Shown piece after piece: positions 22,687-63,960 of a DNA stretch of 64,000 nt. The position numbers and the translations under genes are program-made. Each line of letters opens with the position of its first letter. The stretch's first letter is position 1. The stretch is from Aedes albopictus. Its lineage: Eukaryota; Arthropoda; Insecta; Diptera; Culicidae. The stretch covers positions 294,172,256 to 294,236,255 of the forward strand of contig NC_085138.1 in the NCBI RefSeq assembly GCF_035046485.1. Reading direction: 5' to 3'. The notes beneath the pieces were generated by a model. The model was not told the DNA's origin. It searched no databases and saw only the letters and a program-made list of their open reading frames with translations.

Positions 22687-22956
22687 CTTCTTCTTCTTCT
22701 TCTTCTTTATGGCACTACGTCCCCACTGGGACTTGGCCTGCCTCGCTTCAACTTAGTGTTCTTTGAGCACTTCCACAGTTATTAATTGAAGGGCTTTCTT
22801 TGCCTGCCATTGCATGAATTTGTACATTGTGAGGCAAGCACAATGACACACTATGCCCAGGGAGTCGAGAAAAGTTTCCCGACTGGAACGGGAATCGAAC
22901 CCGCCGTCTCCGGATTGGCAATCCATAGCCTTAACCACTAGGCTAACTGGAGACCC
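22687..22956 (-). mobile_element. Feilai-type SINE
   Basis: Reverse orientation: (CTT)n tail at the left, GGGACTTGGCCTGCCTCG, then the B box GGAATCGAACCC and A box at the right. Perfect 13-bp duplication ATGTTGAGAGAGT at 22674-22686 and 22957-22969, so this is a relatively recent insertion. Confidence 0.9.
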
Positions 22957-24290: not shown

Positions 24291-24979
24291 GGTCCTTCTT
24301 TCAAGTTTATAGATCGATCTTCAATAGGATAACGCAGAGAACAGACATCCAAGCTATACCAAAATCTCTAGAAAGCTGTGTAAGGACTTAAGTTTATCGC
24401 ACAAAAATGTGCTCTTAAACTGGTTCTTGTATGTTTTTTTAAGAAACAAACGATCGTAACTATCGAACAAAAAGAGATAACGATAATCTCCGCGCACGAA
24501 ACGACACATTTTTTTCCTGAAGCACCCTAAGCTAATTCAGAAAAATATCTCTAGATCGATCCATTTTAAAGCTACATAAAAGGCTAACTTGTTCAAAATT
24601 GATACAAAATTTACAAGTTGGCCGAAGAGTTATTAGGGTTATTAGGATGGATCGACGTTGTATGCGAAAATTTAAAATTGCTCTGACTCAATTAGATCAA
24701 CGGTTTTTGGTTGGAGGACAAAAGGTCGAAGGTCAAAAGGTCTAAGGCCAAAAGGTCGACGGTCAAAAGGTCGAAGGGTCAAAAGGTCGAAGGGTCAAAA
24801 GGTCGAAAGGTCGAAATAAAAAAATACCTAGGACAAAAGGTCGAAAGGTCGAAGGGTCAAAAGGTAGAAAGGTCGAAACTGAAAAAAAAATAAACTAGGA
24901 TAAAAGGTCGAAAGGTCGAATTGAAAAATGGATGGAAGGGAACAATGACGATGATACAGAAGATCAAAATAACCATAAA

Positions 24980-26586: not shown

Positions 26587-27585
26587 TAATTGTGTATACT
26601 ATTTTTCCTTCTTTTAAAAATAGGTCGTTCTTTCTAGTTATACTATCACAGCGATTATTTTAATTATGTCCAAAGAGATCTCCTACAAAGATCTACTTAA
26701 ATATCAAAAGATGTGAAGATCAACGTTACGGTTTATTTTTTTAATAACCTCTAGTTCAATGTACTTACTAGACATTGCATTTTTGAAACTTTATACGTAT
26801 TTTTTCTATTCGTTTTAACCATTTCTTTTTATTCCATACAAAAACTCATATTGATTATGAGTGACGCAATGCGAAAAATATTTATGGCGTAAATCATCGC
26901 ACTGCAGGTACTTGAATAAATTTGAAATCCGCTTTTCGTGCCTAACGAATCCTGGCCTTTCAGTTTTATTACTAACTACAGCCTTCGAGCCTTTGACCTT
27001 CCAACCGTCTTCCTCTCGACATTTAGCCTTGTTATTTTTTTATTTTGAATTTTCGACTTTTTGACCCTTCGACCTTTTGTTCTAGTTATTTTTTTGTTAT
27101 TTCGACCTTTCGACCTTTTGACCGCTTGTCATTTCGACCTTTCGACCTTTTGTTATTTTTTCATTTCGACCTTTTGACCCTTCGACCTTTTGTCCTTTCG
27201 ACCTTATGACCTTCGACCTTTTGACCTTCGACCTTTTGTCATAGATCCACGGTTTTTAGATGCCCTTTGAGGTCCCAAATAAATGTGCAAAATTTGAGCT
27301 ACGTTTTGCGCATAGTGATTGAAGTTTGTTTGGGATTTTACATGGGAAAACATACTTTTTAGTATTTTTCTTGAAAGTTGCTCAAATCTGTCCTATACCA
27401 TATAAGCTAATGTGAAAGTATAGTACAGGATATGTGGAAAAACTATGTCGAATGCCGCAAAGCGATCCGATGCTTGTGAAAAAAAGATATGCTCCTGGCA
27501 ATTCAGATCAAAAATTTAGATTTTATTATTGATGTTTTTTATTTACATGTTAAATGTTAAAGACACCCAGATGATTAGTAAGTTA

Positions 27586-34479: not shown

Positions 34480-35410
34480 TTAGGTGTTCCGAACCGGTAC
34501 CCCTGGTAGGGGTCAGACATGAAAATCCAACAAACCCATGCATGCGACATATCAAACCACGGCATTTTTGATGATATGATGAACGGTAAGCAGGAAAATA
34601 GTCTCAGACCATATCAGAACCGGTAGCGTTCCGGAACCGGTTCCGGATGTCCCGCCGGAAGTTGTCAAATATAAAAGAGAACCAAACCTATGCATGCGAC
34701 ACATCAAACAGCGGCATTTTCGATAGCCTGATGAACAGTTAGCAGAAAAACAGTGTAAGACCATATCGGAACCGGTAGTGTTCCGGAACCGGTTGTGGGT
34801 GTCCCGCCGGAAGTGGCCATATATAAAATTGAAAATAACTCATTCATGCGACACATCAAACAGCGACATTTTCGGTAACCTGATGAACGGTTAGCAGGAA
34901 AATAGTATCAGACCATATCTTAACCGGTAGTGTTCCGGAACCGGTTCCGGATGTCCCGACGGAAATGGCCAAATATAAAAGAGAACCAAACCCATGCATG
35001 CGACACACCAAACAGCTGCATTTTCGATAACCTGATGAACGATGAGCAGGAAAATAGTCTCAGACCATATCTGAACCGGTAGTGTTCCGGAACCGGTTCT
35101 GGATGTCCCGCCGGAAGTGGTCAAATATAAAAGAGAACCAAACAATGCATGCGACACATCAAACCACAGCATTTTCGATAACCTGATGAACAGTAAGCAG
35201 GAAAATAGTCTCAGACCATATCAGAACCGGTTGTGTCCCGGAAACGGTTCCGGATGACCCGCCGGGATTTGCCAAATTTAAAAGAGAACCAAACCCATGC
35301 ATATGACACATCAAACAGCGACATTTTCAGTAACCTAATGAAAGGTTAGCAACAGTATCAGACCCTATCAGAACCGATAGTGTTTCGGAACCGGCTCCGG
35401 GGGTCCCGAT
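34480..35410 (+). repeat. 151-bp tandem repeat, about six copies
   Basis: GGAACCGGTTCCGGATGTCCCGCCGGAA recurs near 34636, 34788, 34939, 35090, 35240 and 35391. Other landmarks are CATGCATGCGACACATCAAAC and AACCTGATGAACGGTTAGCAG. Confidence 0.85.
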
Positions 35411-37022: not shown

Positions 37023-37638
37023 CCCTCTAATACCCAATCCCGCCTTTAGACGGGGTATAGTTTGAGCATTTTTGTAATTTTTGTTTCGTGGGTAATCAAA
37101 ATTTTTATATTTTTGGCTGATATTTAGGACTGTTATGTATATCTCAAAATGGTTTTTGGTGTATTTTAAAGCGTATTTACATTTTTTAAAAATCATTGAA
37201 AAATTGATGTTTTGGTCACCTTTCAGAAGTCATTGTTTATTTTGTATTGAATCGCTACAATTAACATATTTTAAATTTTTGCCAAACCATTCTATCCTTG
37301 TTTAATAGTTTAAGGGGATCGAATACACTCTAAAATTATTTTCCTCAAAACTACACGGAAAATAAAATATTATGTGAAAAAAATTTAAAATAAAAATATT
37401 TCAAAAATAATCATAAAATCTCAAAATGTTTTCATCCCAAAAAATCCGTATTCCAAATAGGCTTCCAGGAAAAATATAAAAGTGTGGGGAAGTTTAAAAA
37501 TAAAAATAAGAAAAATCAAAAACTGAAATTCACGAAATCGAGAATTAAAAAGAATCATCTTCCAAAACATGTTTAAATCGATTTTAGATGACGAAAAATG
37601 ATATTTAGATCAAAATCAAAAATTTGGGTATTAGAGGG
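37023..37638. mobile_element. piggyBac-like MITE, uninterrupted copy (616 bp)
   Basis: TTAA (37019-37022) CCCTCTAATACCC at the left and GGGTATTAGAGGG TTAA (37639-37642) at the right. CCCT ends and a TTAA target duplication are the hallmark of the piggyBac superfamily. No ORF of note. It is the direct reference for the interrupted copy at 56857. Confidence 0.75.
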
Positions 37639-38220: not shown

Positions 38221-38579
38221 ACAGTTGTATTCGACTCATGACGGCATTTTTTTCGTTTTCCACTAGTTGGTACTTCTCGTCAAACCAACTTAAACCATTA
38301 CATTGGTATCGCGATTCATCGTTGAGCGATATCCATCATTTCGTCACCTACTAGTTGGCAGACCTATGGATCACTCCTATCCTCTCCTATCCACCATCCT
38401 TCTGATGGTGCTGAAAGCGGCTGATAAGCGTAGAATTTTGAAGTACAACCTTCTGTTATTTCTGGAACTCGTAACGCTGGATAATCACGCCTTAATTACA
38501 CTAGTCGACAAAATTGAAACTTTTTTCACGCACTTTGACCATTTGTCCCATTTCTAATGGAATTTGGCCCGCTGAATCC

Positions 38580-40520
38580 GAATCTGACTTCAGAATTCCT
38601 GTAACACGTACAGTTTTTGAGAAAAATAGGGTTTTATTCACAAAGTTTCATATTTTCAAAGAAAATTTAATATTGTCTTTAAAATTTTAAGTTTTTCATC
38701 TGCTCATTATAACCAATATTCATATTCAATAGATTTTGATCCACTGAGTCAGAATCTGACCTAATAATTTTAGTAATACGTAAATTTTTTGAAAAAAATA
38801 GGGTTATATTCACAAATTCCATATTTTCATAGAAAATAGACTATTGTATTTATAATTTTATTTTTTTATCTGCCCATCTTTACCAAAATTTATATTGAAT
38901 AGATTTTCATATTCTGATTTGCAATCTGACCTAAGAATTTCTGTAACACGTAAAATTTTTGAGAAAATAGGGTTTTAAACACAAAATTTCATATTTTCAT
39001 AGAAAATAAACTACTGTCTTTAAAATTTTCATTTTTTTATCTGCTCATGTAATGTTTTTTAGAAAAATAGGGTTTTATTCCGAAAATTTCAGATTTTCAT
39101 ATAAAATAAAATATTGTTTTTATATTTTTCAATTTCCCACCTGCTCATCATAACCATTTTTTTTTTATTCAATAGATTTTGATCCACTGATTCAGAAACT
39201 GGCCTAAGAATTTCTGTAACACGTAAAATTTTTGAGAAAGTAGGGTATTATTCACAAAATTTCATATTTTCAGAGAAAATTTAATATTGTCTTTATAATT
39301 TTAAATTCAAATCTGATCTTTATAACCAATATTCATATTCAATAGATTTTGATCCACTGAGTCAGAATCTGACCTAATAATTTTCGTAACACGTATTTTT
39401 TTCAGAAAAATTGGGTTTTATTCACAAATTCCATATTATCATAGAAAATAGACTATTGTATTTATAATTTTATTATTTTATCTGCCCATGTTTACCAATA
39501 TTTATATTAAATAAATTTTCATATTCTGATTTGCAATCTGACCTAAACATTTCTGTAACACGTAAAATTTTTGAAAAAAATAGAATTTTAAATACAAAAT
39601 TTCATATTTTCATAGAAAATAAACTATTGTCTTTATAATTTTAATTTTTCATAGAAAATAAACTACTGTCTTTATAATTTTAATTTTTTCTATCTGCTCA
39701 TCTCAACCAACATTTGCATTCAATAGATTTTCATATACTGATTCGGAATCTGACCTAAGAATTTCTGTAACACGTAAAATTTTTGAGAATAATAGGGTTT
39801 TATACACAAATTTCATAATTGCATATAAAATAAAATATTGTTTTTTTTTTATAATTTTCAATTTTCCACCTGCTCATCATAACCATTTTTTTTATTCAAA
39901 TGATTTTGATCTATTGATTCAGAATCTGGCCTAATAATTTCTGTAACACGTAAAATTTTAGTAATGTTTATTAATAAAAAAATCATATTTTCACATGTCT
40001 TTATAATATTAATATTTTTATCTGCTCATCTTAACCAATATTTGTATTTAATAGATTTTCATATTCTGATTCAGAATCTGACCTAAAAATTTCTGTAACA
40101 CGTAAAATTTTAGAGAGAAATGGGGTTATACAAAAAAAATCATATTCTCATAGAAAATAAATAATTGTCTTCATAATTTTCATAATTTTATCTGCGCATC
40201 TTAACCAATATTTGTATTTAATAGATTTTCATATACTGAATTGAAATTTGACCTGAGAATTTCTGTAACACCTATAATTTTTAAGAAAAACAGGGTTTTA
40301 TTCACAAAATTTCATATTTCAAGAGAAAATAAAATATTGTCTTTAAAATTTTATCTTCTCATCTTAACCAATATTTAATAGATTTTGATCCAATAATTCG
40401 GAAACTGATCTAAGAATTTCTGTAACCCGTGAATTTTTTGAGAAAAAATAAAACCCCATTCTTCTCAAACATTCCACGTGTCACAAAATTCCATATTTTC
40501 ATAAAAAATAAAATATTACC
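38580..40520 (+). repeat. AT-rich 170-bp tandem repeat, left block
   Basis: About eleven diverged units, each with the landmark TTTCTGTAACACGTAAAATTTTTGA, ATAGGGTTTTATTCACAAA and TCTGCTCATCTTAACCA, spaced about 157-212 bp apart and mostly near 170; one unit near 39040 is shortened. It forms the left subterminal array of the CACT-terminus element. Confidence 0.8.
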
Positions 40521-40575
40521 TTGGTTTTTTTTTATTTATTTAAGGTTCTCGCATCAAAACATATATTTATCTATT

Positions 40576-40884
40576 CTATCTATATATATAAAAATGAGTT
40601 TGAATTCTCTTTGAGGCAACAAAACTCAAGAACGGCTGAACCGATCGGGATGACTCTTGCAGGGTTTGATTCGTATTCATGGTGGCTGTGTTTATATGCA
40701 AAAAAAAGTTATGAAAATCATCTAGAAAAGTATGAAAATGGTGAAATAACGGATTTTTTTTATGAATTGGGAAGAAAATCAACACGATCGAAATAAAACC
40801 AATCTAGAGTGCCATGTTGCAAGACCTTAACAATTGTCAAACCACCACAACTTGGCAAGACAAAGTTTTCCGGGCCAGCTAGTA
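40576..40884 (+). mobile_element. Helitron-like short element, copy 1
   Basis: Starts TATATATATAAAAATGAGTTTGAA, includes CGGCTGAACCGATCGGGATGA, and ends in CCGGGCCAGCTAGTAT. A second copy with the same ends lies at 62507-62815. A non-inverted asymmetric pair of ends and the CAGCTAGTA terminus fit the non-autonomous Helitron/Helentron pattern in insects; no target duplication is visible. The class is inferred. Confidence 0.5.
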
Positions 40885-40889
40885 TGTGA

Positions 40890-41147
40890 TTAATTTCAAT
40901 CTGTTTATTCAAAATCTAACCCCAGAACTTCTGTACCACGTACAGTTTTTGAGAAAAACACAACTATTCATATATTCGTGTAATATACATATACTGTGTT
41001 TTCCTTTTAATTACGCCAACAATTATTTTTCTCAAAAATTGTACGTGTTACGAAAATTCTTGGGTCAGATTTTGAATCAGTATATGTAAATCCATTAAAC
41101 ATAAATATTTGTTAAGATGAGCAGATAAAAAAAATATAAAGACGATA
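40890..41147 (-). repeat. AT-rich 170-bp repeat, inverted copies left of array copy 1
   Basis: Shows the reverse complement of the left block (TTGTACGTGTTACGAAAATTC near 41038) and joins the right block across array copy 1. It contains the left 13-bp duplication. Confidence 0.65.
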
Positions 41148-44100
41148 TGTCAATTTCTTGATTTTGTTTTGGCTGACCAAGCCATGTGGGAAATTACACT
41201 GTTGAAAATGCTTTGACATCCATGTGCACAACAGAACATGTGCTCGATGAACAAATTGAGATTTGAAATTATGAAAAGAAATCCACGTACTCCGGTGAGA
41301 CTCGAACTCACGACTCCCAATTCGCTAGACGGGCGCTTCTATTCCTTCAAGCTACGGAGTCACTCGACTATCTCCGTCGCCAGCAGGCCTAGAACTGAAC
41401 TCGATTCCACAATCGCACATGGTTATCTTCTTTTCACAATCCAAACCCCCTTCGGATGGGATTAGATGAACATCTAACACATTGTCTGTTGTGCACATGT
41501 ATGTCAAAGCGGGAGAGGAAGTTATTTTTAATTGTCGAGAGCTTCGGGCACTGCCTTCCAATCACTTATTGGTATGGCAATTAGTGTGCAGTCGGACTCT
41601 CGACGGGTCGGTCCTCGGCCGACCGAATACGGTAAGGGTGACCGTAGCACCTTACAAATGTCAATTTCTTGATTTTGTTTTGGCTGACCAAGCCATGTGG
41701 GAAATTACACTGTTGAAAATGCTTTGACATCCATGTGCACAACAGAACATGTGCTCGATGAACAAATTGAGATTTGAAATTATGAAAAGAAATCCACGTA
41801 CTCCGGTGAGACTCGAACTCACGACTCCCAATTCGCTAGACGGGCGCTTCTATTCCTTCAAGCTACGGAGTCACTCGACTATCTCCGTCGCCAGCAGGCC
41901 TAGAACTGAACTCGATTCCACAATCGCACATGGTTATCTTCTTTTCACAATCCAAACCCCCTTCGGATGGGATTAGATGAACATCTAACACATTGTCTGT
42001 TGTGCACATGTATGTCAAAGCGGGAGAGGAAGTTATTTTTAATTGTCGAGAGCTTCGGGCACTGCCTTCCAATCACTTATTGGTATGGCAATTAGTGTGC
42101 AGTCGGACTCTCGACGGGTCGGTCCTCGGCCGACCGTGTTCGATGTGTTCGATGTGTTCATCGAGCACATGTTCTGTTGTGCACATGGATGTCAAAGCAT
42201 TTTCAACAGTGTAATTTCCCACATGGCTTGGTCAGCCAAAACAAAATCAAGAAATTGACATTTGTAAGGTGCTACGGTCACCCTTACCGTATTCGGTCGG
42301 CCGAGGACCGACCCGTCGAGAGTCCGACTGCACACTAATTGCCATACCAATAAGTGATTGGAAGGCAGTGCCCGAAGCTCTCGACAATTAAAAATAACTT
42401 CCTCTCCCGCTTTGACATACATGTGCACAACAGACAATGTGTTAGATGTTCATCTAATCCCATCCGAAGGGGGTTTGGATTGTGAAAAGAAGATAACCAT
42501 GTGCGATTGTGGAATCGAGTTCAGTTCTAGGCCTGCTGGCGACGGAGATAGTCGAGTGACTCCGTAGCTTGAAGGAATAGAAGCGCCCGTCTAGCGAATT
42601 GGGAGTCGTGAGTTCGAGTCTCACCGGAGTACGTGGATTTCTTTTCATAATTTCAAATCTCAATTTGTTCATCGAGCACATGTTCTGTTGTGCACATGGA
42701 TGTCAAAGCATTTTCAACAGTGTAATTTCCCACATGGCTTGGTCAGCCAAAACAAAATCAAGAAATTGACATTTGTAAGGTGCTACGGTCACCCTTACCG
42801 TATTCGGTCGGCCGAGGACCGACCCGTCGAGAGTCCGACTGCACACTAATTGCCATACCAATAAGTGATTGGAAGGCAGTGCCCGAAGCTCTCGACAATT
42901 AAAAATAACTTCCTCTCCCGCTTTGACATACATGTGCACAACAGACAATGTGTTAGATGTTCATCTAATCCCATCCGAAGGGGGTTTGGATTGTGAAAAG
43001 AAGATAACCATGTGCGATTGTGGAATCGAGTTCAGTTCTAGGCCTGCTGGCGACGGAGATAGTCGAGTGACTCCGTAGCTTGAAGGAATAGAAGCGCCCG
43101 TCTAGCGAATTGGGAGTCGTGAGTTCGAGTCTCACCGGAGTACGTGGATTTCTTTTCATAATTTCAAATCTCAATTTGTTCATCGAGCACATGTTCTGTT
43201 GTGCACATGGATGTCAAAGCATTTTCAACAGTGTAATTTCCCACATGGCTTGGTCAGCCAAAACAAAATCAAGAAATTGACATTTGTAAGGTGCTACGGT
43301 CACCCTTACCGTATTCGGTCGGCCGAGGACCGACCCGTCGAGAGTCCGACTGCACACTAATTGCCATACCAATAAGTGATTGGAAGGCAGTGCCCGAAGC
43401 TCTCGACAATTAAAAATAACTTCCTCTCCCGCTTTGACATACATGTGCACAACAGACAATGTGTTAGATGTTCATCTAATCCCATCCGAAGGGGGTTTGG
43501 ATTGTGAAAAGAAGATAACCATGTGCGATTGTGGAATCGAGTTCAGTTCTAGGCCTGCTGGCGACGGAGATAGTCGAGTGACTCCGTAGCTTGAAGGAAT
43601 AGAAGCGCCCGTCTAGCGAATTGGGAGTCGTGAGTTCGAGTCTCACCGGAGTACGTGGATTTCTTTTCATAATTTCAAATCTCAATTTGTTCATCGAGCA
43701 CATGTTCTGTTGTGCACATGGATGTCAAAGCATTTTCAACAGTGTAATTTCCCACATGGCTTGGTCAGCCAAAACAAAATCAAGAAATTGACATTTGTAA
43801 GGTGCTACGGTCACCCTTACCGTATTCGGTCGGCCGAGGACCGACCCGTCGAGAGTCCGACTGCACACTAATTGCCATACCAATAAGTGATTGGAAGGCA
43901 GTGCCCGAAGCTCTCGACAATTAAAAATAACTTCCTCTCCCGCTTTGACATACATGTGCACAACAGACAATGTGTTAGATGTTCATCTAATCCCATCCGA
44001 AGGGGGTTTGGATTGTGAAAAGAAGATAACCATGTGCGATTGTGGAATCGAGTTCAGTTCTAGGCCTGCTGGCGACGGAGATAGTCGAGTGACTCCGTAG

Positions 44101-45275
44101 CTTGAAGGAATAGAAGCGCCCGTCTAGCGAATTGGGAGTCGTGAGTTCGAGTCTCACCGGAGTACGTGGATTTCTTTTCATAATTTCAAATCTCAATTTG
44201 TTCATCGAGCACATGTTCTGTTGTGCACATGGATGTCAAAGCATTTTCAACAGTGTAATTTCCCACATGGCTTGGTCAGCCAAAACAAAATCAAGAAATT
44301 GACATTTGTAAGGTGCTACGGTCACCCTTACCGTATTCGGTCGGCCGAGGACCGACCCGTCGAGAGTCCGACTGCACACTAATTGCCATACCAATAAGTG
44401 ATTGGAAGGCAGTGCCCGAAGCTCTCGACAATTAAAAATAACTTCCTCTCCCGCTTTGACATACATGTGCACAACAGACAATGTGTTAGATGTTCATCTA
44501 ATCCCATCCGAAGGGGGTTTGGATTGTGAAAAGAAGATAACCATGTGCGATTGTGGAATCGAGTTCAGTTCTATGCCTGCTGGCGACGGAGATAGTCGAG
44601 TGACTCCGTAGCTTGAAGGAATAGAAGCGCCCGTCTAGCGAATTGGGAGTCGTGAGTTCGAGTCTCACCGGAGTACGTGGATTTCTTTTCATAATTTCAA
44701 ATCTCAATTTGTTCATCGAGCACATGTTCTGTTGTGCACATGGATGTCAAAGCATTTTCAACAGTGTAATTTCCCACATGGCTTGGTCAGCCAAAACAAA
44801 ATCAAGAAATTGACATTTGTAAGGTGCTACGGTCACCCTTACCGTATTCGGTCGGCCGAGGACCGACCCGTCGAGAGTCCGACTGCACACTAATTGCCAT
44901 ACCAATAAGTGATTGGAAGGCAGTGCCCGAAGCTCTCGACAATTAAAAATAACTTCCTCTCCCGCTTTGACATACATGTGCACAACAGACAATGTGTTAG
45001 ATGTTCATCTAATCCCATCCGAAGGGGGTTTGGATTGTGAAAAGAAGATAACCATGTGCGATTGTGGAATCGAGTTCAGTTCTAGGCCTGCTGGCGACGG
45101 AGATAGTCGAGTGACTCCGTAGCTTGAAGGAATAGAAGCGCCCGTCTAGCGAATTGGGAGTCGTGAGTTCGAGTCTCACCGGAGTACGTGGATTTCTTTT
45201 CATAATTTCAAATCTCAATTTGTTCATCGAGCACATGTTCTGTTGTGCACATGGATGTCAAAGCATTTTCAACAG
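41148..45275. mobile_element. 511-bp-monomer mobile array, copy 1 (4.1 kb)
   Basis: Tandem units of exactly 511 bp, judged from the spacing of all internal landmarks. Two near-complete units run in one orientation (41148-42136). An 18-bp filler made of two TGTTCGATG 9-mers follows (42137-42154). About 6.1 units then run in the opposite orientation (42155-45275). Units are essentially identical; one substitution is seen near 44573. The block is flanked by a perfect 13-bp duplication TATAAAGACGATA at 41135-41147 and 45276-45288, and the flanks rejoin as a 170-bp satellite unit. No protein domain is encoded: the recurring 69-81-codon frames are by-products. No family is recognised. Confidence 0.85.
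42540..42660 (+). repeat. tRNA-like module inside the 511-bp unit (representative copy)
   Basis: About 70 bases starting near GACTCCG: acceptor-like GACTCCG pairs with CGGAGT; a D-arm-like GCTT/AAGC follows; then an anticodon-arm-like region with CCCG/TGGG; and a perfect 5-bp T stem GTGAG/CTCAC with loop TTCGAGT. GAGTTCGAGTC fits the pol III B box and TAGCTTGAAGG loosely fits the A box. It is present in every full unit of both arrays. It is probably a tRNA-derived promoter or head rather than a working tRNA gene, since it is only an internal part of a repeat. Confidence 0.6.
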
Positions 45276-45900
45276 TATAAAGACGATAGTTTTTCCATGA
45301 AAATATGAAATTTTGCGAATAAAATATTTTTCTCCAAAATTTTACGTGTTGCAGAAATTCTTAGGTCAGATTACGAATAAGTGAAATAAAATCTTAAAAT
45401 ATAAAATATGAATTAAGATGAGTAGATAAAAACTTTAAAATTATAAAGACAATATTTTATTTTCTTTGAAAATATGATATTTTGTGAATAAAACCTCATT
45501 TTTCTCAAGAACTGCACGTGTTACAGAGATTCTTAGGTTAGTTACCGAATCTGTGGATGAAAATCTAATAAATATAAATATTGGCAAAAATGAGGAGATA
45601 AAAAAATTAAAATTATAAAGACAATAGTTTATTTTCTTCGAAAATATGAAATTTTGTAAATAAAGCCCCATTTTTCTCAAAAAAGATACGTTTTAAAAAA
45701 ATTCTTAGGTCAGATTGAGAATCAGTGGATCAAAATCTATTGAATTTAAATATTGGTTATGATGAGCAGAAAAAATATAAATATTAAGAAAATATTTTGT
45801 TTTCTATGAAAATATGAAATTTTGTGAATAAAACCCTATTTTTCTCAAAAACTGTACGTGTTACAGCAATTCCGAAGTCAGATTCGGAATCAGCGGGCCA
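45276..45900 (-). repeat. AT-rich 170-bp tandem repeat, right block (inverted)
   Basis: About four units in the opposite orientation to the left block, with landmarks near 45343, 45516, 45690 and 45865. It forms the right subterminal array of the CACT-terminus element. Confidence 0.75.
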
Positions 45901-46534
45901 AAATCCTTCGGAAATGGATCAAGTGGTCAAAGTGCGTGATCCGCTGTCGACCAGTGTTATTGCCTCAAATAAATAGTGATCCGAGTTAATGTTCGAACCT
46001 ATGTGTCACATCTGTGGCCTTCGAAGAATGTCGCCTGCAGACCTATTTTGTTGAACTGTTCATTCGCGAAACTAAAACTGATTATTTTCCTAGACCAGAA
46101 TATAAAACTCAACTTATCATCGATGGCCCATAGGGTATTCAATTGAGGCAAAGATAAAGCAGCGGCTCACGAAGTTGGATGAAATTTTAAATTTAATTCT
46201 GCATCTGTTGTCGAGATACCTATAGATAGGATATTGTTCGGAAGCTTTCATTCGTGAAAATTCTATATTCAATTCAAACAGTCCTTTTTACAGCATAAAT
46301 TAATAATTAGGTATCTACTCGGGAAGAGCCTGAATGTGATTCTGTGCATAGCGCATGAGCAGTTTAAATCTAGGAAAGCAAAAGGGAAAACGTTCTCAAC
46401 TATTCTTCTCGAAATCAAACACATGATTTAAGCGCTCTCAACCGCCCTTCAACAGCTGGTGTCGAGTCGATGGTAGTAACCGTAGATTTCATACATATAT
46501 TACCTAAATACAACCTGTGTTGTTTGTACTATAC

Positions 46535-55700: not shown

Positions 55701-58700
55701 ACATCGTTCAACTGGTATTTTATTAAGGTAAACAGCTGTTGGCTCAACCGTATATTTTCTTGTAAATGAAATAAAAACGCAGTTTTTAACATTAATTTCA
55801 AGCAAATTTTTCTGACACCTCTGACACCAGTTCTGCTGAATTACAAATCTCAAGAAACAGTTTCATATCATCAGCATATATTAAAACATTGAGGCGATTC
55901 AAGACACGTTCTACATCATTGACAAATAAAATGAACAATAGAGGACCAAGATGAGATCCTTGTGGTACCCCGGATGTAACCTCAATTATTGTTGTGGATA
56001 TACTATGTTCAAATCTTACTCTTTGGGTTCTATCGGATAGGTACGGTTGTATCCACTTTAACAATCCAGGATTGAAACCAAGCCTACCTAATTTAAATAG
56101 TAATAGGTAAAGCAATATCAACTCTATCGAATGCCTTACTGAAATCAGTGTAGGTACAGTGTTTCAACATAATGCTCTCTATCCATGGCGTTAATTGAAA
56201 ATGTTACAAATTGCAATAGATTAGTGATCGTTGATCGTCCTTTGAAAAAACCATGTTGATTACAAGTTATTAGACATTTGACTAGAGAGAATATCTTGTC
56301 ATTGATTATTGATTCAAATAATTTAGAGATACAGAATAAAATGGCTATTCCGTGATAGTTTTTAATATCAGATTTTTTACCTGATTTAAAAATTGAGACT
56401 AAAAAAGAATCTTTCCAACATTAAGACATTTGACTTAACTTATTCTCAACACGGAAGAAAATTATAATGAAACGCCGTTTCCAAGCAAAACACCTCAAGC
56501 AGTTGAAATGCTAATTAACAGCCCAAAGCTTTTGAACAGCACCGTTTACGCCAATTCAAGGCAGCTATGCATTCGAACTGCTTATGTAGGGCAGCAAGCA
56601 GGTCAAATACTTAATAGGGTCTGCTCTGCGGATTATTCAAATGCTTAGTGTTTTACCTGGGTATTAATCAGTTTTGAAGGAAAGTTACACAATAGTCGAC
56701 AAAAAATTGAAATATTGATATGCATCCTATCAATATTTCAATTTTTTGTCGACTATCAGGAACTATCAGGACTATCAGGAATAGTCCATTAATTTTAAAA
56801 ATCACAAAAAAAATAATTCGCTGAACATTTTTTTCTTATTAATAATTTTAAGTTAACCCTCTAATACCCAATCCCGCCTTTAGACGGGGTATAGTTTGAG
56901 CATTTTTGTAATTTTTGTTTCGTGGAATTTTTTTTTTTTTTTGGCTGATATTTAGGACTGTTCTGTATATCTCAAAATGGTTTTTGGTGTATTTTAAAAC
57001 GTATTTACATTTTTTTAAATCATTGAAAAATTGATGTTTTAGTCACCTTTTAGAAGCCATTGTTTATTTTGTATTGAATCGCTACAATTAACATATTTTC
57101 AATTTTTCCCAAATCATTCTATCCTTGTTTAATAGTTAAAGGGAATCGAATACACTCTAAAATTATTTTCCTTAAAATTACACGGAAAATAAAATTTTCT
57201 GTAAAAAAAACTTAAAATAATACACTGTTGAAAATGCTTTGACATCCATGTGCACAACAGAACATGTGCTCGATGAACAAATTGAGATTTGAAATTATGA
57301 AAAGAAATCCACGTACTCCGGTGAGACTCGAACTCACGACTCCCAATTCGCTAGACGGGCGCTTCTATTCCTTCAAGCTACGGAGTCACTCGACTATCTC
57401 CGTCGCCAGCAGGCCTAGAACTGAACTCGATTCCACAATCGCACATGGTTATCTTCTTTTCACAATCCAAACCCCCTTCGGATGGGATTAGATGAACATC
57501 TAACACATTGTCTGTTGTGCACATGTATGTCAAAGCGGGAGAGGAAGTTATTTTTAATTGTCGAGAGCTTCGGGCACTGCCTTCCAATCACTTATTGGTA
57601 TGGCAATTAGTGTGCAGTCGGACTCTCGACGGGTCGGTCCTCGGCCGACCGAATACGGTAAGGGTGACCGTAGCACCTTACAAATGTCAATTTCTTGATT
57701 TTGCTTTGGCTGACCAAGCCATGTGGGAAATTACACTGTTGAAAATGCTTTGACATCCATGTGCACAACAGAACATGTGCTCGATGAACAAATTGAGATT
57801 TGAAATTATGAAAAGAAATCCAAATCAAGAAATTGACATTTGTAAGGTGCTACGGTCACCCTTACCGTATTCGGTCGGCCGAGGACCGACCCGTCGAGAG
57901 TCCGACTGCACACTAATTGCCATACCAATAAGTGATTGGAAGGCAGTGCCCGAAGCTCTCGACAATTAAAAATAACTTCCTCTCCCGCTTTGACATACAT
58001 GTGCACAACAGACAATGTGTTAGATGTTCATCTAATCCCATCCGAAGGGGGTTTGGATTGTGAAAAGAAGATAACCATGTGCGATTGTGGAATCGAGTTC
58101 AGTTCTAGGCCTGCTGGCGACGGAGATAGTCGAGTGACTCCGTAGCTTGAAGGAATAGAAGCGCCCGTCTAGCGAATTGGGAGTCGTGAGTTCGAGTCTC
58201 ACCGGAGTACGTGGATTTCTTTTCATAATTTCAAATCTCAATTTGTTCATCGAGCACATGTTCTGTTGTGCACATGGATGTCAAAGCATTTTCAACAGTG
58301 TAATTTCCCACATGGCTTGGTCAGCCAAAGCAAAATCAAGAAATTGACATTTGTAAGGTGCTACGGTCACCCTTACCGTATTCGGTCGGCCGAGGACCGA
58401 CCCGTCGAGAGTCCGACTGCACACTAATTGCCATACCAATAAGTGATTGGAAGGCAGTGCCCGAAGCTCTCGACAATTAAAAATAACTTCCTCTCCCGCT
58501 TTGACATACATGTGCACAACAGACAATGTGTTAGATGTTCATCTAATCCCATCCGAAGGGGGTTTGGATTGTGAAAAGAAGATAACCATGTGCGATTGTG
58601 GAATCGAGTTCAGTTCTAGGCCTGCTGGCGACGGAGATAGTCGAGTGACTCCGTAGCTTGAAGGAATAGAAGCGCCCGTCTAGCGAATTGGGAGTCGTGA

Positions 58701-61700
58701 GTTCGAGTCTCACCGGAGTACGTGGATTTCTTTTCATAATTTCAAATCTCAATTTGTTCATCGAGCACATGTTCTGTTGTGCACATGGATGTCAAAGCAT
58801 TTTCAACAATGTAATTTCCCACATGGCTTGGTCAGCCAAAACAAAATCAAGAAATTGACATTTGTAAGGTGCTACGGTCACCCTTACCGTATTCGGTCGG
58901 CCGAGGACCGACCCGTCGAGAGTCCGACTGCACACTAATTGCCATACCAATAAGTGATTGGAAGGCAGTGCCCGAAGCTCTCGACAATTAAAAATAACTT
59001 CCTCTCCCGCTTTGACATACATGTGCACAACAGACAATGTGTTAGATGTTCATCTAATCCCATCCGAAGGGGGTTTGGATTGTGAAAAGAAGATAACCAT
59101 GTGCGATTGTGGAATCGAGTTCAGTTCTAGGCCTGCTGGCGACGGAGATAGTCGAGTGACTCCGTAGCTTGAAGGAATAGAAGCGCCCGTCTAGCGAATT
59201 GGGAGTCGTGAGTTCGAGTCTCACCGGAGTACGTGGATTTCTTTTCATAATTTCAAATCTCAATTTGTTCATCGAGCACATGTTCTGTTGTGCACATGGA
59301 TGTCAAAGCATTTTCAACAGTGTAATTTCCCACATGGCTTGGTCAGCCAAAGCAAAATCAAGAAATTCACACTTAAAATAATAATATTTCAACAATAACC
59401 ATAAAATCTCAAAATGTTTTCATCTAAAAAAATGCGTTCCCCAAATTGGCTTCCAGGAAAAATGTAAAAGTGTGGGAATGGGAATGTTCAAAAATAAAAA
59501 TTAGAAAAATCAAAAACAAAAATTCACGAAATCAAGAATTAAAAAGAATCATCTTCCAAAACATGTTGAAATCGATTTTAGATGACAAAAAATGATATTA
59601 AGATCGAAATCAAAAATTTGGGTATTAGAGGGTTGAGAAAAAATGCTAAAAATATCCTATGATTCATATTTTATCCAGAATTTTTCAAAAGCCTTTTCTA
59701 TGGAATTATTCAAGAATGCAGTCATAAAAATCTCCAGGACATTTTACCTGTATCTTTTTTCCAGAATTTCGGACATTATGTGTCAGAAAACCAATCAGAT
59801 TCTATCAGATTGATTGCTTACGATACACAGTAAGGTGGCCCACAGTTATATGAAAAACAAAAATATCGAAAAATGCTAAGTCTTACCTCCTAAATCAGTT
59901 GTTTTGGACTCCCAGAAGCTACGTTCAAAATTTGAGCAAAATCAATTAAGCCTAAGGGGGCGCTCAAAACGCTTGAAGTTTGTATGGGAAAACTGAGCAA
60001 AATGTATGCAGAAATTTTAAGTTTTCGAATTTTGCCGCTAGGTAGCGCTGTAAGCGTTCAATAATCAAACCCTTTGGAATTATTGTAGGTGACTATATGC
60101 CAAACAACTTTTTTTTTTTTAATTGTTTGTGGTGTTGTCAGACGACTGGCTAAGACCGGTCATGCCAAACAACTTTGTCGGAGACCGCAAAGTGATCCAA
60201 CGTCTGTGAAAAAAGTTATACCCTAGGTAAACTGAGGATGAACTTTATTTTTGTTTTTCCAATACACGTAAAGGAATAATATCAATAACGAAATCTCAAA
60301 ACTTTACCTCACTTTGCCTAGGTTATAACTTTTTTCACAGCCGTCGGATCACTTTGCGGTCTTCGACATAGTTGTTTGGCATAGTCATTTACAATAATAC
60401 CAAAGGGTTTGATTATTGAACGCTTACAGCGCCACCTAGCGGCAAAATTCGAAAACTTAAAATTTCTGCATACATTTTACTCAGTTTTCCCATACAAACT
60501 TCAAGCGTTTTGAGCGCCCCCTTAGGCTTAATTGATTTTGCTCAAATTTTGAACGTAGCTTCTGGGAGGCCAAAACAACTGATTTAGGAGGTAAGACTTG
60601 GCATTTTTCGAAATTTTTGCTTTTCATATAAGTGTGGGCCACCCTAACACACAGTCTACAAAACCTAGGATAGGATACGACAACTAGTCAGCCCAAAAGA
60701 GACCAATTTGGGGACCAATAATCTTAGCAACGCGGAAAAACAAGACAGCAAGCTGTGAAATTAGACAGAGAAGTTGCAGGTGTCACATCCTATCCTAGTA
60801 CAAAACCAATGGTTTTTTTTGACGGGATTCGTTACATTTGACTACAAAATTCAACCAAATGTTTCTTAAAAATTTCCGATAGACGTTCTCTTGCAAATTC
60901 CACAAAAAAGCTTTCAGAAACAACAATTTTAGAAATCTTGCCATTATTTAGTTTTTTTTTAACGTCAGGCATTGCTCTATACGTTAGTTCCGTCCAAAAT
61001 TTATATTAAATCCAAAATATTAGCCAAAAACTGATTAGCAGGGTTAAGACAGAAATTACTTCAAGAGTTTAACTAAGAAATTCAGAATATGATCTTCTAA
61101 GTTTAGATAAATTGAGCTTCTAGTGCAATGCAACTTAACTAACACTCCACACTATTGACTATAAACATTGTTTTTGCTCAAACACAAAATTCCATAATTC
61201 TCTAATACTCTAATTCTAATACCATCAGGGTACCAGATTCCGCTCATCTAAGGCCAGTTTCGGAGAAAAACATCATCTATTGAATGATTGTTAAGCCGAT
61301 TTGAAATATTTTTGCATTTTATGTTAGTTCAATCTAAGCACAATCAGATACAAATCAAGACTAAAGTAGAACTTTTTATAAAAATATGATTTTATTACAG
61401 TTGGTGTGAGACCAAAGTGGTCCTAATTCCGCTCACGAACAAATTTTTGTCACCTTTTAAGTAGACTTTTCCGAAAAATTGTATTCTTTTTGCAATTCTA
61501 TGTTTTTACAATTAGTTTTTCCTGTTTAGTGTAAGTATATAACAGTGATTAAATACACGATGTACTAAAACTGGCAGATTTTACGATTTTCACGCACTTT
61601 ATTGCGTGAGCGGTTATTGGAACACATAAAATTAACTACAGCTTTTTTGGGCCCAATAGCCGCTCAAAAATTTTCATTGTTTTGTTCATAAAATTTATGT

Positions 61701-63960
61701 GTTTCGGTAAATATTGCATAAAATGGCTGTGCTCTTATCTAATTCACATTGTCCAAGAATATCCGCGCCAAAAAGAGTGTATTTATGCGTGTAAACTTGA
61801 TTTTTACAACAATGAGCGGCTATTGGGTCATGAGCGGCTACTGGTACACTGACGGTACTTCTAAATCTCTAATTTGAAAATGTTTTTTTTTTCGATTGTG
61901 TTGAACTCTATGTCCAAATGTTTGATGTAAGTACATTTATAAACTATTTCCGCAAAATCCGCGCCAAAATTAGTAAAAACGCGCGAAACGCAAAAACCGC
62001 GAAAAACGCAAATTCCGCGCCGCCTGTAACAGCCCTGTAGTTGTGACTTTCACAATCAGAGGCGGGCGCGCGCATCGTTTTTCTATGCGTTTGACGTTTC
62101 ACACTAGCGCCTTCTGTTGACGATATTGCACAACACAGTGATTCGTGCAAATTTTCCACCAGGTGATGGTAGTGTGAACTGGGCGATGGATTTCCATGAA
62201 AATCGTTCAAGGTGTTACGTCTGTTTGTGGTTAGGGATCGTTCAAAAATTACGTCTATCATTTGGGGGGGGGGGGTTTAGAAAAGTGTGTCAGTACGTGT
62301 ATAAGGTATAGGGAAAAAGCTTGACAGAGGGGGGAGGGGGGTTGTCTAGAAAACCTGAAAAACGATGGACGTAATTAATGAACCTTCCCTTACACTAATT
62401 TTCATAAGATATATTTTGATGAATTTCGTTACTTCCCTGAGTGTAGTGTTATAATTTGCATAAAACTCGATGCATAAATAACTCCCTATTATGCAACTCA
62501 TAACAATTTCTCCATATATATAAAAATGAGTTTGAAATCCCTTTGAGGCAACAAAACTCACGAACGGCTGAACCGAACGGGATGAATTTTGCATGGTTTG
62601 ATTTGTATTTAGAATGGCTGTGTTTATAAGTAAAAAAAAAGTTATGAAAATGGAATGAAAAGTAAGAAAATTAATAAATTACTGATTTTTCATGAGCTGG
62701 GAAAAAAATCAACACGGACGGAATGAAACCAATCTAGAGTGCGGTGCTGTTATGAGCTCAACAGTTGTCAAACCACCAAGCTTGGCAAGACAAAGTTTGC
62801 CGGGACAGCTAGTATTTCATAAAATTCATAATTGGGGTCTCCAGTTAGCCTAATGGTTAAGGCTATGGATCGCCAATCCAGAGACGGCGGGTTCGATTCC
62901 CGTTCCAGTCGGGAATTTTTCTCGACTCCCTGGGCATAGTGTATCATTGTACTTGCCTCACAATCAAGCTCACAATATACAAATTTATACAATGGCAGGC
63001 AAAGAACGCCCTTGAATTAATAACTGTGGAGAAGTGCTTAAAGAACACTAAGTTGAAACAAAGCAGGCCAAGTCCCAGTGGGGACATTGAGCCATAAAGA
63101 AGAAGAAAATTCATAATTAATACCATAATGACCACGGCAAACCGTGTTAGATAAATATACGATAACTCGTTGCGCAAAACTATTAATTATTATTATATAA
63201 CTCACCCAAAATACTCCACGGAGGGCTGAAAAACAACAGGAACATCGCAGTTATCTGCCGCAGAACAATCGGAATCGATCTTTAGTTTTTTGAGTGGCGG
63301 CGCATCTTTCAGATTGTCTGTTAAATAAAATTTATCTTTCAAATCCTTATCCACATTATGTATGAAAATGCTTACCTCTACCTTCCGAAAGAACTGATGC
63401 TACTTGGGTTAATAAATCACATTCATTGCCATCAATATCAATTTTAACTTTACACCCGAGCATTATACCGATGTCAGCTATGAAAATAGCATTACCAACA
63501 TTTTCAAATGAGTCGGCGGAATGAATGAGCATATAAATTATCTGAAAAAAAAAAGAAGTAATAAATTTATAAAACTTACAACTTAAAAAAAAAGTTTTAT
63601 TTATTTTTGAATTAATTATTTTATTTTAAACGTACTTATTTTTTTACGTCAATTTTTTCCTTGACCCGATAATTATAAACTGGTTTACGTTCGATCAATA
63701 AATACAATTACAATTACAATTTTAAACGTACCCGCAGATAGCAAACGATGGTGAATACCTCCCTTTCTTCGCGAGGAACGGCATGCCATTCGCCGGTGTG
63801 TAAACAAGCGTACACCAGGTCGTACACAACTCCAATCCGAACGAGAGTTCGTTTAGCACAAATTGAATCGACTTCACTGCAGCTTCCATTCCGCAGAGGC
63901 TTTAACGCACCTTCTATCACATCACAATAAAGCCGTTTTATTTTAATTGATTTATTTTCT
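46535..63960 (-). CDS. KDM8: KDM8/JMJD5 JmjC-domain oxygenase gene, five coding exons, 5' partial
   Basis: Joined exons 63960-63732, 63541-63376, 63317-63206, 54333-53910 and 46792-46535 encode about 395 residues ending in a stop; the animal protein is about 416 aa. Order: an N-terminal helical region matching the animal JMJD5 N-terminus (LHTGEW block near residue 60), a charged linker, then the JmjC barrel. Visible catalytic residues are the iron-binding HTD (about residues 300-302), a 2-oxoglutarate lysine in FGSK, and the second iron histidine in WWHYVESL (about 379). The C-terminus SFSVSFWFE matches the family ending SFSVSFWW. JMJD5 is a nuclear Fe(II)/2-oxoglutarate oxygenase, reported as an H3K36me2 demethylase and later as an arginyl C3-hydroxylase; the biochemical assignment is debated. 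There is no in-frame ATG in the first exon seen, so the start lies right of 64000. All internal junctions are GT-AG with matching phase and no breaks, so the gene looks intact. Confidence 0.93.
47108..47452. mobile_element. Palindromic MITE in KDM8 downstream intron
   Basis: ACTGCAAGCCATCAAGCTTGGAAATATTTT near 47116 mirrors AAATATTTCCAAGCTTAATGGCTTGCAGT near 47450. The arms of about 120 bp share AATTGGTCAATTAACATCTAAA and GACTCATGCAAAATATTTCG. Confidence 0.7.
48430..51835. other. KDM8 intronic sequence without recognised genes
   Basis: Contains a short palindrome near 48600-48740 (ATCGTATAAGATG ... CATCTTATACGAT) and the reverse dispersed repeat at 50460-50720. A GC-richer patch at 50790-50905 has open frames on both strands, but no domain is visible. 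Confidence 0.45.
50460..50720 (-). repeat. Dispersed repeat, reverse copy 3 of 3, with TTCGACTTTCCATACAAGG block
   Basis: GAGCTCGGTAAGCTGATGG ... GTGTAGAATCATGCCCTGAGTTCG is the reverse complement of 1-82. The adjoining CGACTTTCCATACAAGGATTTGAAATCG is the reverse complement of a stretch at 34070-34110, so both belong to one larger family. Confidence 0.55.
52280..53900. other. KDM8 intronic sequence without recognised genes
   Basis: No inverted ends or domain-bearing frames recognised. Frames at 53300-53690 on both strands lack known motifs. Confidence 0.45.
53910..54333 (-). CDS. KDM8: KDM8 exon 4 (in window), first half of JmjC domain
   Basis: The acceptor is the pyrimidine-rich CCCCTTCCAG just right of 54333; a single base completes the split glycine codon (EYFG-SEHYD). 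Encodes 141 residues containing WPAMQKW, TVPVEIGSQY, the LAQHELFDQIPEL signature of JMJD5, and the HTD iron triad near 53940. The donor is CAG|GTAGGT at 53909, phase 0. Upstream in-frame codons to 54461 are intronic read-through, not coding, because the family alignment starts at the splice site. Confidence 0.93.
54527..54955. mobile_element. Tc1/mariner-like palindromic MITE
   Basis: TA-CAGTGCGAGAAATTAGTATAAAGACAGAGC at the left mirrors GCTCTGTCTTTATACTTTATTTCTCGCACTG-TA at the right. The arms run almost to the centre (about 200 bp each), making a long hairpin. The TA duplication suggests the IS630-Tc1-mariner group. Confidence 0.8.
54960..56425 (-). mobile_element. Jockey-clade non-LTR retrotransposon, 5'-truncated reverse transcriptase
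   Basis: Read on the minus strand from 56425: IFKSGKKSDIKNYHGIAIL, QHGFFKGRST, then SGVPQGSHLGPLLFILFVNDV and the catalytic YADDMKLF (frame 56121-55798), then the thumb and C-terminal region (frame 55853-55074) with LGIILDSKL and ITYVRPLLEYCSIVW. At least two frame changes and a 5' truncation make it inactive. The 3' end has a short (ATAA)n tail at about 54960-54985 and abuts the TA-flanked palindrome at 54955. It lies antisense-free, in the same orientation as KDM8, in its big intron. Confidence 0.88.
56692..56756. repeat. Perfect 29-bp inverted repeat with 7-base loop
   Basis: Arms 56692-56720 and 56728-56756 (ATAGTCGACAAAAAATTG ...) are exactly complementary around TGCATCC. They are followed by direct repeats of AACTATCAGG. 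Confidence 0.85.
56857..59632. mobile_element. piggyBac-like MITE interrupted by array copy 2
   Basis: The left end TTAA-CCCTCTAATACCC (from 56853) and right end GGGTATTAGAGGG-TTGA (to 59636; the duplication has one change) enclose 2776 bp. Subtracting array copy 2 (2148 bp) and one 13-bp duplication leaves 615 bp, against 616 bp for the intact copy. The sequence on both sides matches the copy at 37023. Confidence 0.8.
57223..59370. mobile_element. 511-bp-monomer mobile array, copy 2 (2.1 kb)
   Basis: The same monomer as copy 1, inserted within a TTAA-flanked MITE. About 1.2 units run one way (57223-57821), an abrupt junction follows at about 57822, then about 3 units run the other way to 59370. 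It is flanked by a perfect 13-bp duplication ACTTAAAATAATA (57210-57222 and 59371-59383). Three of four units carry GCCAAAGC where copy 1 has GCCAAAAC, so the copies are separable. Read from the opposite strand, the outer ends nearly coincide with those of copy 1 (start near GTCAATTTCTTG, end near TTTTCAACAG). Confidence 0.85.
59833..60644. mobile_element. Long palindromic MITE (812 bp), TA-flanked
   Basis: TA-AGGTGGCCCACAG at the left mirrors GTGTGGGCCACCC-TA at the right. Arms of nearly 400 bp share CAGTTTTCCCATACAAACTTCAAGCG and GGGGGCGCTCAAAACG. It lies in the big KDM8 intron. Confidence 0.8.
60114..60163 (-). mobile_element. Truncated retro-insert with poly(T) end
   Basis: A T-run followed by about 40 bases (GTTTGTGGTGTTGTCAGACGACTGG) interrupts the palindrome. 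ATGCCAAACAACTT is repeated on both sides (about 60099-60112 and 60164-60178), giving a 14-15-bp target duplication. It looks like a severely 5'-truncated minus-strand retroposon. Confidence 0.6.
61227..61851. mobile_element. MITE with GTACCAG inverted ends
   Basis: CAGGGTACCAGATTCCGCTCAT at the left mirrors ATGAGCGGCTACTGGTACACTG at the right. GAGCGG motifs recur inside. The target duplication is not clear. Confidence 0.65.
62234..62389. mobile_element. Small MITE, TTA-flanked
   Basis: TTA-GGGATCGTTCAAAAATTACGTC at the left mirrors GGACGTAATTAATGAACCTTCCC-TTA at the right. It has an internal G-run and a GGGGGGAGGGGGG tract. Confidence 0.7.
62507..62815 (+). mobile_element. Helitron-like short element, copy 2
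   Basis: Shares the full layout of copy 1, from ATATATATAAAAATGAGTTTG through GAACGGCTGAACCGAACGG to the end CCGGGACAGCTAGTAT. It lies in the large KDM8 intron, immediately left of a Feilai SINE. Confidence 0.5.
62834..63105 (+). mobile_element. Feilai-type SINE in KDM8 intron
   Basis: Head GTCTCCAGTTAGCCTAATGG, B box GGGTTCGATTCCC, tail AAGAAGAAG. Perfect 13-bp duplication AAAATTCATAATT (62821-62833 and 63106-63118). It lies about 100 bp from the splice donor of the KDM8 exon 63317-63206 and runs opposite to the gene. Confidence 0.9.
63206..63317 (-). CDS. KDM8: KDM8 exon 3 (in window), linker
   Basis: A short exon after a 58-bp intron. The acceptor is TTTAACAG and the donor is TTTTGG|GTGAGT, phase 2. 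It encodes a lysine-rich linker (PPLKKLKID, a possible nuclear localisation segment) and the start of the JmjC N-terminal flank, QPSVEYFG, matching the family PSLEYFRE motif. The following intron is 8.9 kb and carries a Feilai SINE, a Helitron-like copy, the 511-bp array copy 2 and a Jockey fragment. Confidence 0.88.
63376..63541 (-). CDS. KDM8: KDM8 exon 2 (in window)
   Basis: Begins after a polypyrimidine tract and CAG at 63544-63542, directly continuing the reading frame (CYLR-IIYML). Encodes 55 residues ending VASVLSEGR. The donor is G|GTAAGC at 63375, phase 1. The segment IADIGIMLGCKVKIDIDGN corresponds to the helical repeat of the JMJD5 N-terminal domain. The intron to the previous exon is 190 bp. 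Confidence 0.88.
63732..63960 (-). CDS. KDM8: KDM8 exon (most 5' one visible)
   Basis: Encodes 76 residues of the N-terminal helical domain, including LHTGEW and REEREVFTIVCYLR, which align with the animal JMJD5 pattern LNTGTW ... VYAIGCLLKAL. The donor is CGG|GTACGT at 63731. The left boundary is my choice of a strong acceptor (TCTTTCTTCAG) at 63961-63970. The frame stays open to the window edge, so a longer or earlier exon is possible. Confidence 0.82.

Follow-up and report, generated by a model that had tools for sequence, protein, structure and literature searches.

The stretch of the Aedes albopictus genome considered here (64,000 nucleotides of contig NC_085138.1, positions 294172256-294236255; hereafter the window) carries two insertions of a tandemly repeated 511-bp unit which, together with their relatives in the whole assembly (1.344 Gb and 1,494 contigs were searched), point to a short non-coding retroelement that probably moves as Penelope-like elements (PLEs) do. 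The first insertion, copy 1, lies between two target-site duplications (TSDs), the 13-mer TATAAAGACGATA, of which the window has exactly two copies, 41135-41147 and 45276-45288 (both +), one at each edge of the array; none of 100 shuffles contained two. Between them are 4,128 bp, or 8.08 units, the whole units being 99.8-100% identical to the reference unit (42771-43281, +; unit positions 1-511). Once joined, the flanks align across the join to nearby 170-bp repeats at approximately 73-78%, with small gaps. An earlier note on this DNA had described the 13-bp duplication, about eight near-identical units and flanks that rejoin into a 170-bp repeat, and all three observations hold. A simple head-to-tail array is ruled out by the layout, which consists of two arms placed head-to-head: a - arm of 1.9 units (41148-42136) with outer end A (sense 3' end ...AAATTGACA) and a + arm of 6.1 units (42149-45275) with outer end B (...CATTTTCAACAG), with 12 bp of filler at the junction (42137-42148, no strand assigned). 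A 111-bp piece at this inner junction is 98.2% identical to the reference unit.

Copy 2 (57223-59370) has its own 13-bp TSD, ACTTAAAATAATA, at 57210-57222 and 59371-59383 (both +), and comprises a - arm of 1.2 units with outer end B (57223-57822), 15 bp of filler at the head-to-head junction (57823-57837, no strand assigned) and a + arm of 3.0 units with outer end A (57838-59370). Its joined flanks align to positions 37226-37559 (+) of the window, with 306 of 340 positions identical and no gap at the insertion point; judged by this alignment, that segment, with a single copy of the target sequence, is the paralogous empty site of copy 2. Both copies are real insertions, and the first account of them was partial, the arms, the tRNA-like domain described below and the TSD and empty site of copy 2 having been missed. 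The 170-bp satellite that hosts copy 1 (38494-41159 and 45271-45905) itself switches strand, its units to the left of about 40.96 kb lying nearly all on one strand and those at 41025-41159 and to the right of copy 1 on the opposite one; possibly this satellite, too, goes back to a two-armed array, of greater age.

The unit has a GC content of 46%, compared with 37% for the window, and contains a 75-nt tRNA-like domain, the strand carrying which is taken as the + strand of the unit. The domain is found in every unit, eight times in copy 1 (41287-41361 and 41798-41872 in the - arm; 42558-42632, 43069-43143, 43580-43654, 44091-44165, 44602-44676 and 45113-45187 in the + arm) and four times in copy 2 (57313-57387, -; 58136-58210, 58647-58721 and 59158-59232, +). 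The Rfam tRNA model gives 31.1 bits (gathering cut-off 29) and ARAGORN calls a tRNA-Ala (AGC) for copy 1. Of the RNA polymerase III promoter boxes, the B box matches the consensus and the A box is approximate, departing from the strict consensus; the sense strand is interrupted by T4 runs only. The predicted fold of the unit RNA beats that of shuffled sequences (z -7.6 linear and -7.1 circular; weaker for the antisense, -5.3), with a long stem predicted around the tRNA-like domain. The unit also contains an internal inverted repeat, the source of most matches of 41 bp or less, and matches of this size were dropped from the arm maps (in one comparison, those of exactly 40 bp). Beside one insertion, L016, lies a diverged tRNA-like piece (L016:583-635) which is 90.7% identical to unit positions 302-355, the rest of the unit being missing, and which possibly belongs to another element or an ancestor with the same domain.

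No frame for a reverse transcriptase (RT) with GIY-YIG was found in the array, and its longest open frame is 81 aa, which rules out a coding element or autonomous PLE. A hammerhead motif scan found none in the unit and none in 56 kb of the window, whereas the same scan was positive in 12 of 22 PLE loci of this genome, its pattern having been loosened and tuned after a PLE sequence had been viewed (an earlier, stricter pattern gave 0 of 22). The motifs in these 12 loci are of one kind, two pairs of the loci overlapping; a match at PLE locus L051 is unlike them and perhaps due to chance. Rfam likewise reports no ribozyme in the unit, but it equally misses the hammerhead-like motif of the PLEs, and the motif scan is therefore the better evidence. 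As neither approach finds a hammerhead in the unit, the element was rejected as a hammerhead retrozyme.

A 29-mer from the tRNA-like core matches the genome exactly at 1,991 places, 1,029 of them forward and 962 reverse (reversed control 0), and a second, from unit positions 420-448, at 1,760 (control 0). Loci were defined from the first 100 places of each, of which 97 and 100 respectively were used; these gave 73 loci, all within the initial 82 Mb of contig C1, or about 0.9 per Mb, and by extrapolation some 1,200 loci per genome. Within this stretch the two-stranded loci run - then + in 30 of 30 cases, so that the sense strand faces outward on both sides, and the spacing between matches of the same probe on the same strand is exactly 511 in 35 of 35, while head-to-head spacings range from 49 to 1,007 (25 loci). 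For closer study the best 40 scored of 648 candidates were examined, ranked by their match to the full copy 1 unit, a selection in which long and young arrays are over-represented.

Both ends are visible in 23 insertions, 20 two-armed and three one-armed (L021, L039 and L044), edge-cut or N-interrupted loci (L030, L031-L033 and L036-L038) being left out. TSDs of 10-15 bp flank 20 of the 23 (one of 10 bp, seven of 11, five of 12, five of 13, one of 14 and one of 15); the outcome which the earlier note had named as fatal to its idea, namely that all other copies lie in simple tandem loci lacking duplications, is thus not what was found. The tables of TSDs and ends exclude L040, whose TSD is ambiguous (a 36-bp repeat inside a tandem repeat), as well as L039 and L044; L016 was added later, and the one-armed L021 was kept, its 6-bp filler and repeated target making its TSD less certain. 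Because the TSDs vary between 10 and 15 bp, a fixed-length transposase is ruled out.

Every one of the 20 two-armed insertions pairs an outer end A (unit 509-514) with an outer end B (453-468), the two sites lying approximately 46 nt apart in the unit. Some A ends extend by up to 3 nt beyond the 511/1 boundary; the RNA would therefore continue beyond A, with initiation being internal. At both ends the unit sequence lying past the start agrees with the 3' end of the TSD, on average over 1.84 nt for A (0-6 nt in 19 insertions) and 2.11 nt for B (0-4 nt in 18), as against about 0.7 with shuffled primers and 0.43 at random flank positions, and none of 5,000 shuffles reached the observed values. 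In 14 of 19 insertions a G directly follows the nick on the strand which primes at B (flank G frequency 0.18; P 2e-7, for a position chosen after looking), and in eight of the 19 the nick is followed by GTT. The tabulated insertion ends carry neither poly(A) nor a tail of simple repeats.

Among 23 inner junctions (L030, L033 and L038 being included here), 12 have an overlap of 1-6 nt, one is blunt and 10 carry 1-36 nt of filler, which would resemble the products of microhomology-mediated joining. Inner ends are scattered across the unit, yet in eight of the 23 junctions both lie within 37 nt of each other (expected 3.4, P 0.013, the cut-off having been chosen after looking). Arm lengths differ by more than 10% in 14 of the 20 uncut two-armed insertions and by 10% or less in the other six. 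Snap-back predicts equal arms, and because of these six insertions and the eight with close inner ends, snap-back self-priming may contribute to some insertions, as has been proposed for PLEs (PMC3846280). In the 21 insertions with a located A end, the A arms measure 511-2,215 bp (median 755) and the B arms 0-3,132 bp (median 602; the zeros are two one-armed copies). Coverage of the unit reaches its maximum of 101 at position 450, a short way upstream of B, and declines to 68 at position 5, in a sample biased towards long arrays. Two independent insertions, L023 and L027, have nearly the same head-to-head junction (- inner end at 97 and 101, + inner end at 64), which adjoins a predicted hairpin of the unit and is a possible preferred joining or stalling point.

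The anatomy of the insertions recalls that of the PLEs, which are plentiful in this genome. A GIY-YIG search gave at least 22 matches (the best 150 of 1,587 candidates scored), and one PLE protein gave at least 76 (75 of 3,970 candidates scored), 24 of the 76 with an open frame of at least 800 aa and no internal stop; in the two PLE frames scanned, GIY-YIG was above the cut-off in both and RVT_1 above it in one and below it in the other. Among the matches listed, the two-stranded PLE clusters run - then + in seven of seven, and four PLE copies have clear TSDs (13, 14, 14 and 14 bp); in all four a tail is present at one end and absent from the other. In the literature, an Anolis PLE cut and extended both strands in vitro, its two internal starts matching the genomic 30-40 bp tail (PMC11167929), and the PLEs of bdelloids form partial tandems in which pseudo-long terminal repeats (pLTRs) are inverted, a tail is not always present and the TSDs measure 8-10 bp (PMC3846280). 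Variable TSDs, two internal starts, a one-sided tail and priming on both strands form the published signature of PLEs, and for this reason we favour a PLE-type reading of the element. The likeness to PLEs of the Penelope/Poseidon type, drawn from these two sources and from the genome's own PLEs, extends to tandem and head-to-head arms and to the pairing of one tailed with one untailed end. The element differs in that it lacks an RT/GIY-YIG frame, a detected hammerhead and detected sequence similarity to PLEs, in that its tail is about 46 bp as against approximately 28-40 bp, and in possessing a tRNA-like domain.

The mechanism we propose would run as follows. A PLE-type protein would nick the two target strands 10-15 nt apart, favouring on one of them a G, frequently as GTT, just past the nick; each target 3' end, aided by about 2 nt of pairing, would then prime reverse transcription at an internal site, A or B, of the same sense RNA, these sites being about 46 nt apart. 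Each cDNA would extend upstream along a repeating template, for which a 511-nt RNA circle is the likeliest form, and cover approximately 0.3 to 6 laps of it, and the two cDNA ends would finally be joined head-to-head, the outcome being a divergent pair of tandem arrays between TSDs. Legible in the sequence itself are the TSDs, the orientation of the arms, the A and B ends, the microhomology, the nick preference, the exact 511 period, the homogeneity of the units and the like-built PLE copies. Insertion by two-strand primed reverse transcription can be proposed from them with high confidence; a repeating template is highly probable and a PLE protein very probably the agent, whilst transcription would presumably start from the tRNA-like promoter. 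To the full chain, that is, a non-autonomous PLE-type retroelement of 511 nt with an RNA circle as template and priming on two strands, we assign a probability of roughly 0.6.

The earlier note had regarded the whole array as one object which moves as such. That copy 1 is an inserted object with a TSD is borne out; the movement of a finished array is less well supported, and an array newly built at the target fits better because the starts A and B are fixed, the inner junctions variable and the unit type uniform within each insertion. Between the two routes that it had suggested, a multimeric RNA or a circular DNA, RNA is likely and circular DNA disfavoured.

Several observations should nevertheless be set against the proposed mechanism. 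A TSD was sought but not found at L039 and L044, three of 19 A ends and three of 18 B ends have zero microhomology, and the nick preference on the A-priming strand is weak (G in six of 19). Of the seven PLE loci tested for a TSD, one (L060) gave just a low-complexity 10-mer, and at L061 and L063 the search found none. Comparison of the unit with the ends of three PLE families yielded neither a convincing sequence match (P 0.027, 0.21 and 0.55) nor a helper PLE; the unit resembles PLE ends in anatomy, not detectably in sequence. The exact counts of the two 29-mers (1,760 for unit 420-448, 1,991 for the tRNA core) do not show the predicted decay away from B, a comparison confounded by subfamily mutations, which exact matching also counts. 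Finally, two insertions, W2 and L023, contain unlike units, which a pure circle does not explain.

The nature of the template can be addressed using a variant at unit position 493 (A or G), which was typed in 99 units of 26 insertions (16 A, 83 G). Only one insertion, W2, is mixed, compared with 12.1 expected from random dealing (the lowest of 10,000 shuffles was 7), a weak null since arrays may inherit their type; where both arms were typed they carry the same allele, in 17 insertions of 17, and copy 1 has the rarer 493A in all eight of its typed units, across both arms. These figures suggest that each insertion derives from a single monomer-like source. An RNA circle explains this best, a multimer from a uniform array being the alternative; a circle is probable rather than a linear multimer. 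The rival that survives best, although we consider it unlikely, is the same PLE-type insertion templated by a linear transcript that spans several units of an array already present. The authors of PMC11167929 propose that unprocessed multi-copy transcripts are the PLE template, hammerhead mutants still having inserted in vitro; the mixed units of W2 and L023 would suit such a template, and read-through is possible because T4 runs alone interrupt the sense strand. Were arrays to arise from arrays, the uniformity at 493 in 25 of 26 insertions, with agreement of the arms in 17 of 17, would require homogenisation to have occurred repeatedly; inheritance from uniform source arrays would, however, likewise produce it.

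A different agent is improbable. Twin priming by a long interspersed element (LINE) also yields variable TSDs, microhomology and inverted 5' parts. Target-primed reverse transcription by an apurinic/apyrimidinic endonuclease (APE) LINE is thus compatible with the variable TSDs, microhomology and inverted parts seen here, but both arms begin at fixed internal sites and both are several laps long, most insertions (20 of 23) are two-armed, neither poly(A) nor a tail of simple repeats was seen at the ends, and the inner end of the A arm does not generally lie at B, where classic twin priming on a single RNA would place it. Foldback DNA transposons with tandem-repeat terminal inverted repeats have long inverted arms of tandem repeats. 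An origin of this type, in which the long inverted repeats would be the tandem arrays, accounts for two inverted tandem-repeat arms between TSDs and yet is very improbable: the TSDs vary from 10 to 15 bp, the ends are non-identical, with a difference of about 46 bp in each of the 20 two-armed insertions, the arrays examined contain neither a core nor a transposase, and truncated, one-armed copies exist. With variable TSDs and unlike termini (A and B), the foldback transposon was rejected. Conventional in-place satellite growth, or the re-insertion of extrachromosomal DNA circles at breaks, would explain the exact 511-bp head-to-tail periodicity and is the least credible account given the TSDs, the paralogous empty site, the fixed A/B ends and the dispersal of the loci, at approximately 0.9 per Mb over the stretch listed, in-place growth being rejected for the studied insertions with TSDs.

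Returning to the PLE-type retroelement, its close counterparts include the animal non-LTR (non-long terminal repeat) retrozymes, which share with it short non-coding tandem units, a GC content below 50%, TSDs and structured RNA, and for which a circle template and a PLE helper have both been proposed (PMC7229834, PMC7761336). The insertion of repeating RNA by PLEs is put forward for these retrozymes in the same two papers, and the mobilisation of tandem, circle-derived elements by PLEs was suggested from the presence of hammerheads in both (PMC7761336). At 46% the GC of our element lies below the 50% bound and its TSDs exceed 4 bp, but the 511-bp unit is longer than the approximately 150-450 bp of retrozymes; unlike them, it has a tRNA-like domain, paired divergent arms and two fixed ends, and no hammerhead was found. 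We therefore file it as a ribozyme-free, tRNA-bearing, PLE-type tandem retroelement, which is retrozyme-like but, with no detected hammerhead, not a retrozyme by definition. No described equivalent was recognised in the open PubMed Central literature, represented mostly by titles and the openings of abstracts.

We tentatively suggest that PLE-dependent RNA circles can exist without a ribozyme, the tRNA-like domain taking the place of the hammerhead in transcription and perhaps, by way of tRNA-processing enzymes, in circularisation, and that rolling-circle reverse transcription primed on two strands seeds dispersed, paired divergent arrays; the role given here to the tRNA-like domain is a guess. 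This large and very young family, extrapolated to about 1,200 loci, would be a natural record of nick preference, two starts, primer pairing, multi-lap copying and cDNA joining. It suggests that the ribozyme is dispensable, would provide a way for dispersed satellite arrays to originate directly in tandem form, and would serve as a natural test substrate in PLE biochemistry.

The tRNA-like domain, with its B-box match, and the non-autonomous character are also found in tRNA-derived short interspersed elements (SINEs), from which the element differs in being tandem and two-armed, with internal starts and without a simple-repeat or poly(A) tail. The window contains a SINE family of its own, which we take to be Feilai-like, seen as tRNA matches at 22888-22945 (-) and 62846-62903 (+), the copies being 88% alike and ending in AAG repeats; kinship with these SINEs was rejected, as they have no clear similarity to the 511-bp unit. 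Elsewhere in the window there is a separate tandem array at 34531-35408 (approximately 5.8 copies of 152 bp, 84% matches), and short arrays of AGGTCAAA and TTTCGACC-like repeats lie at 24715-24920 and 27092-27238, in opposite orientation and about 2.3 kb apart, which are perhaps the two ends of one element.

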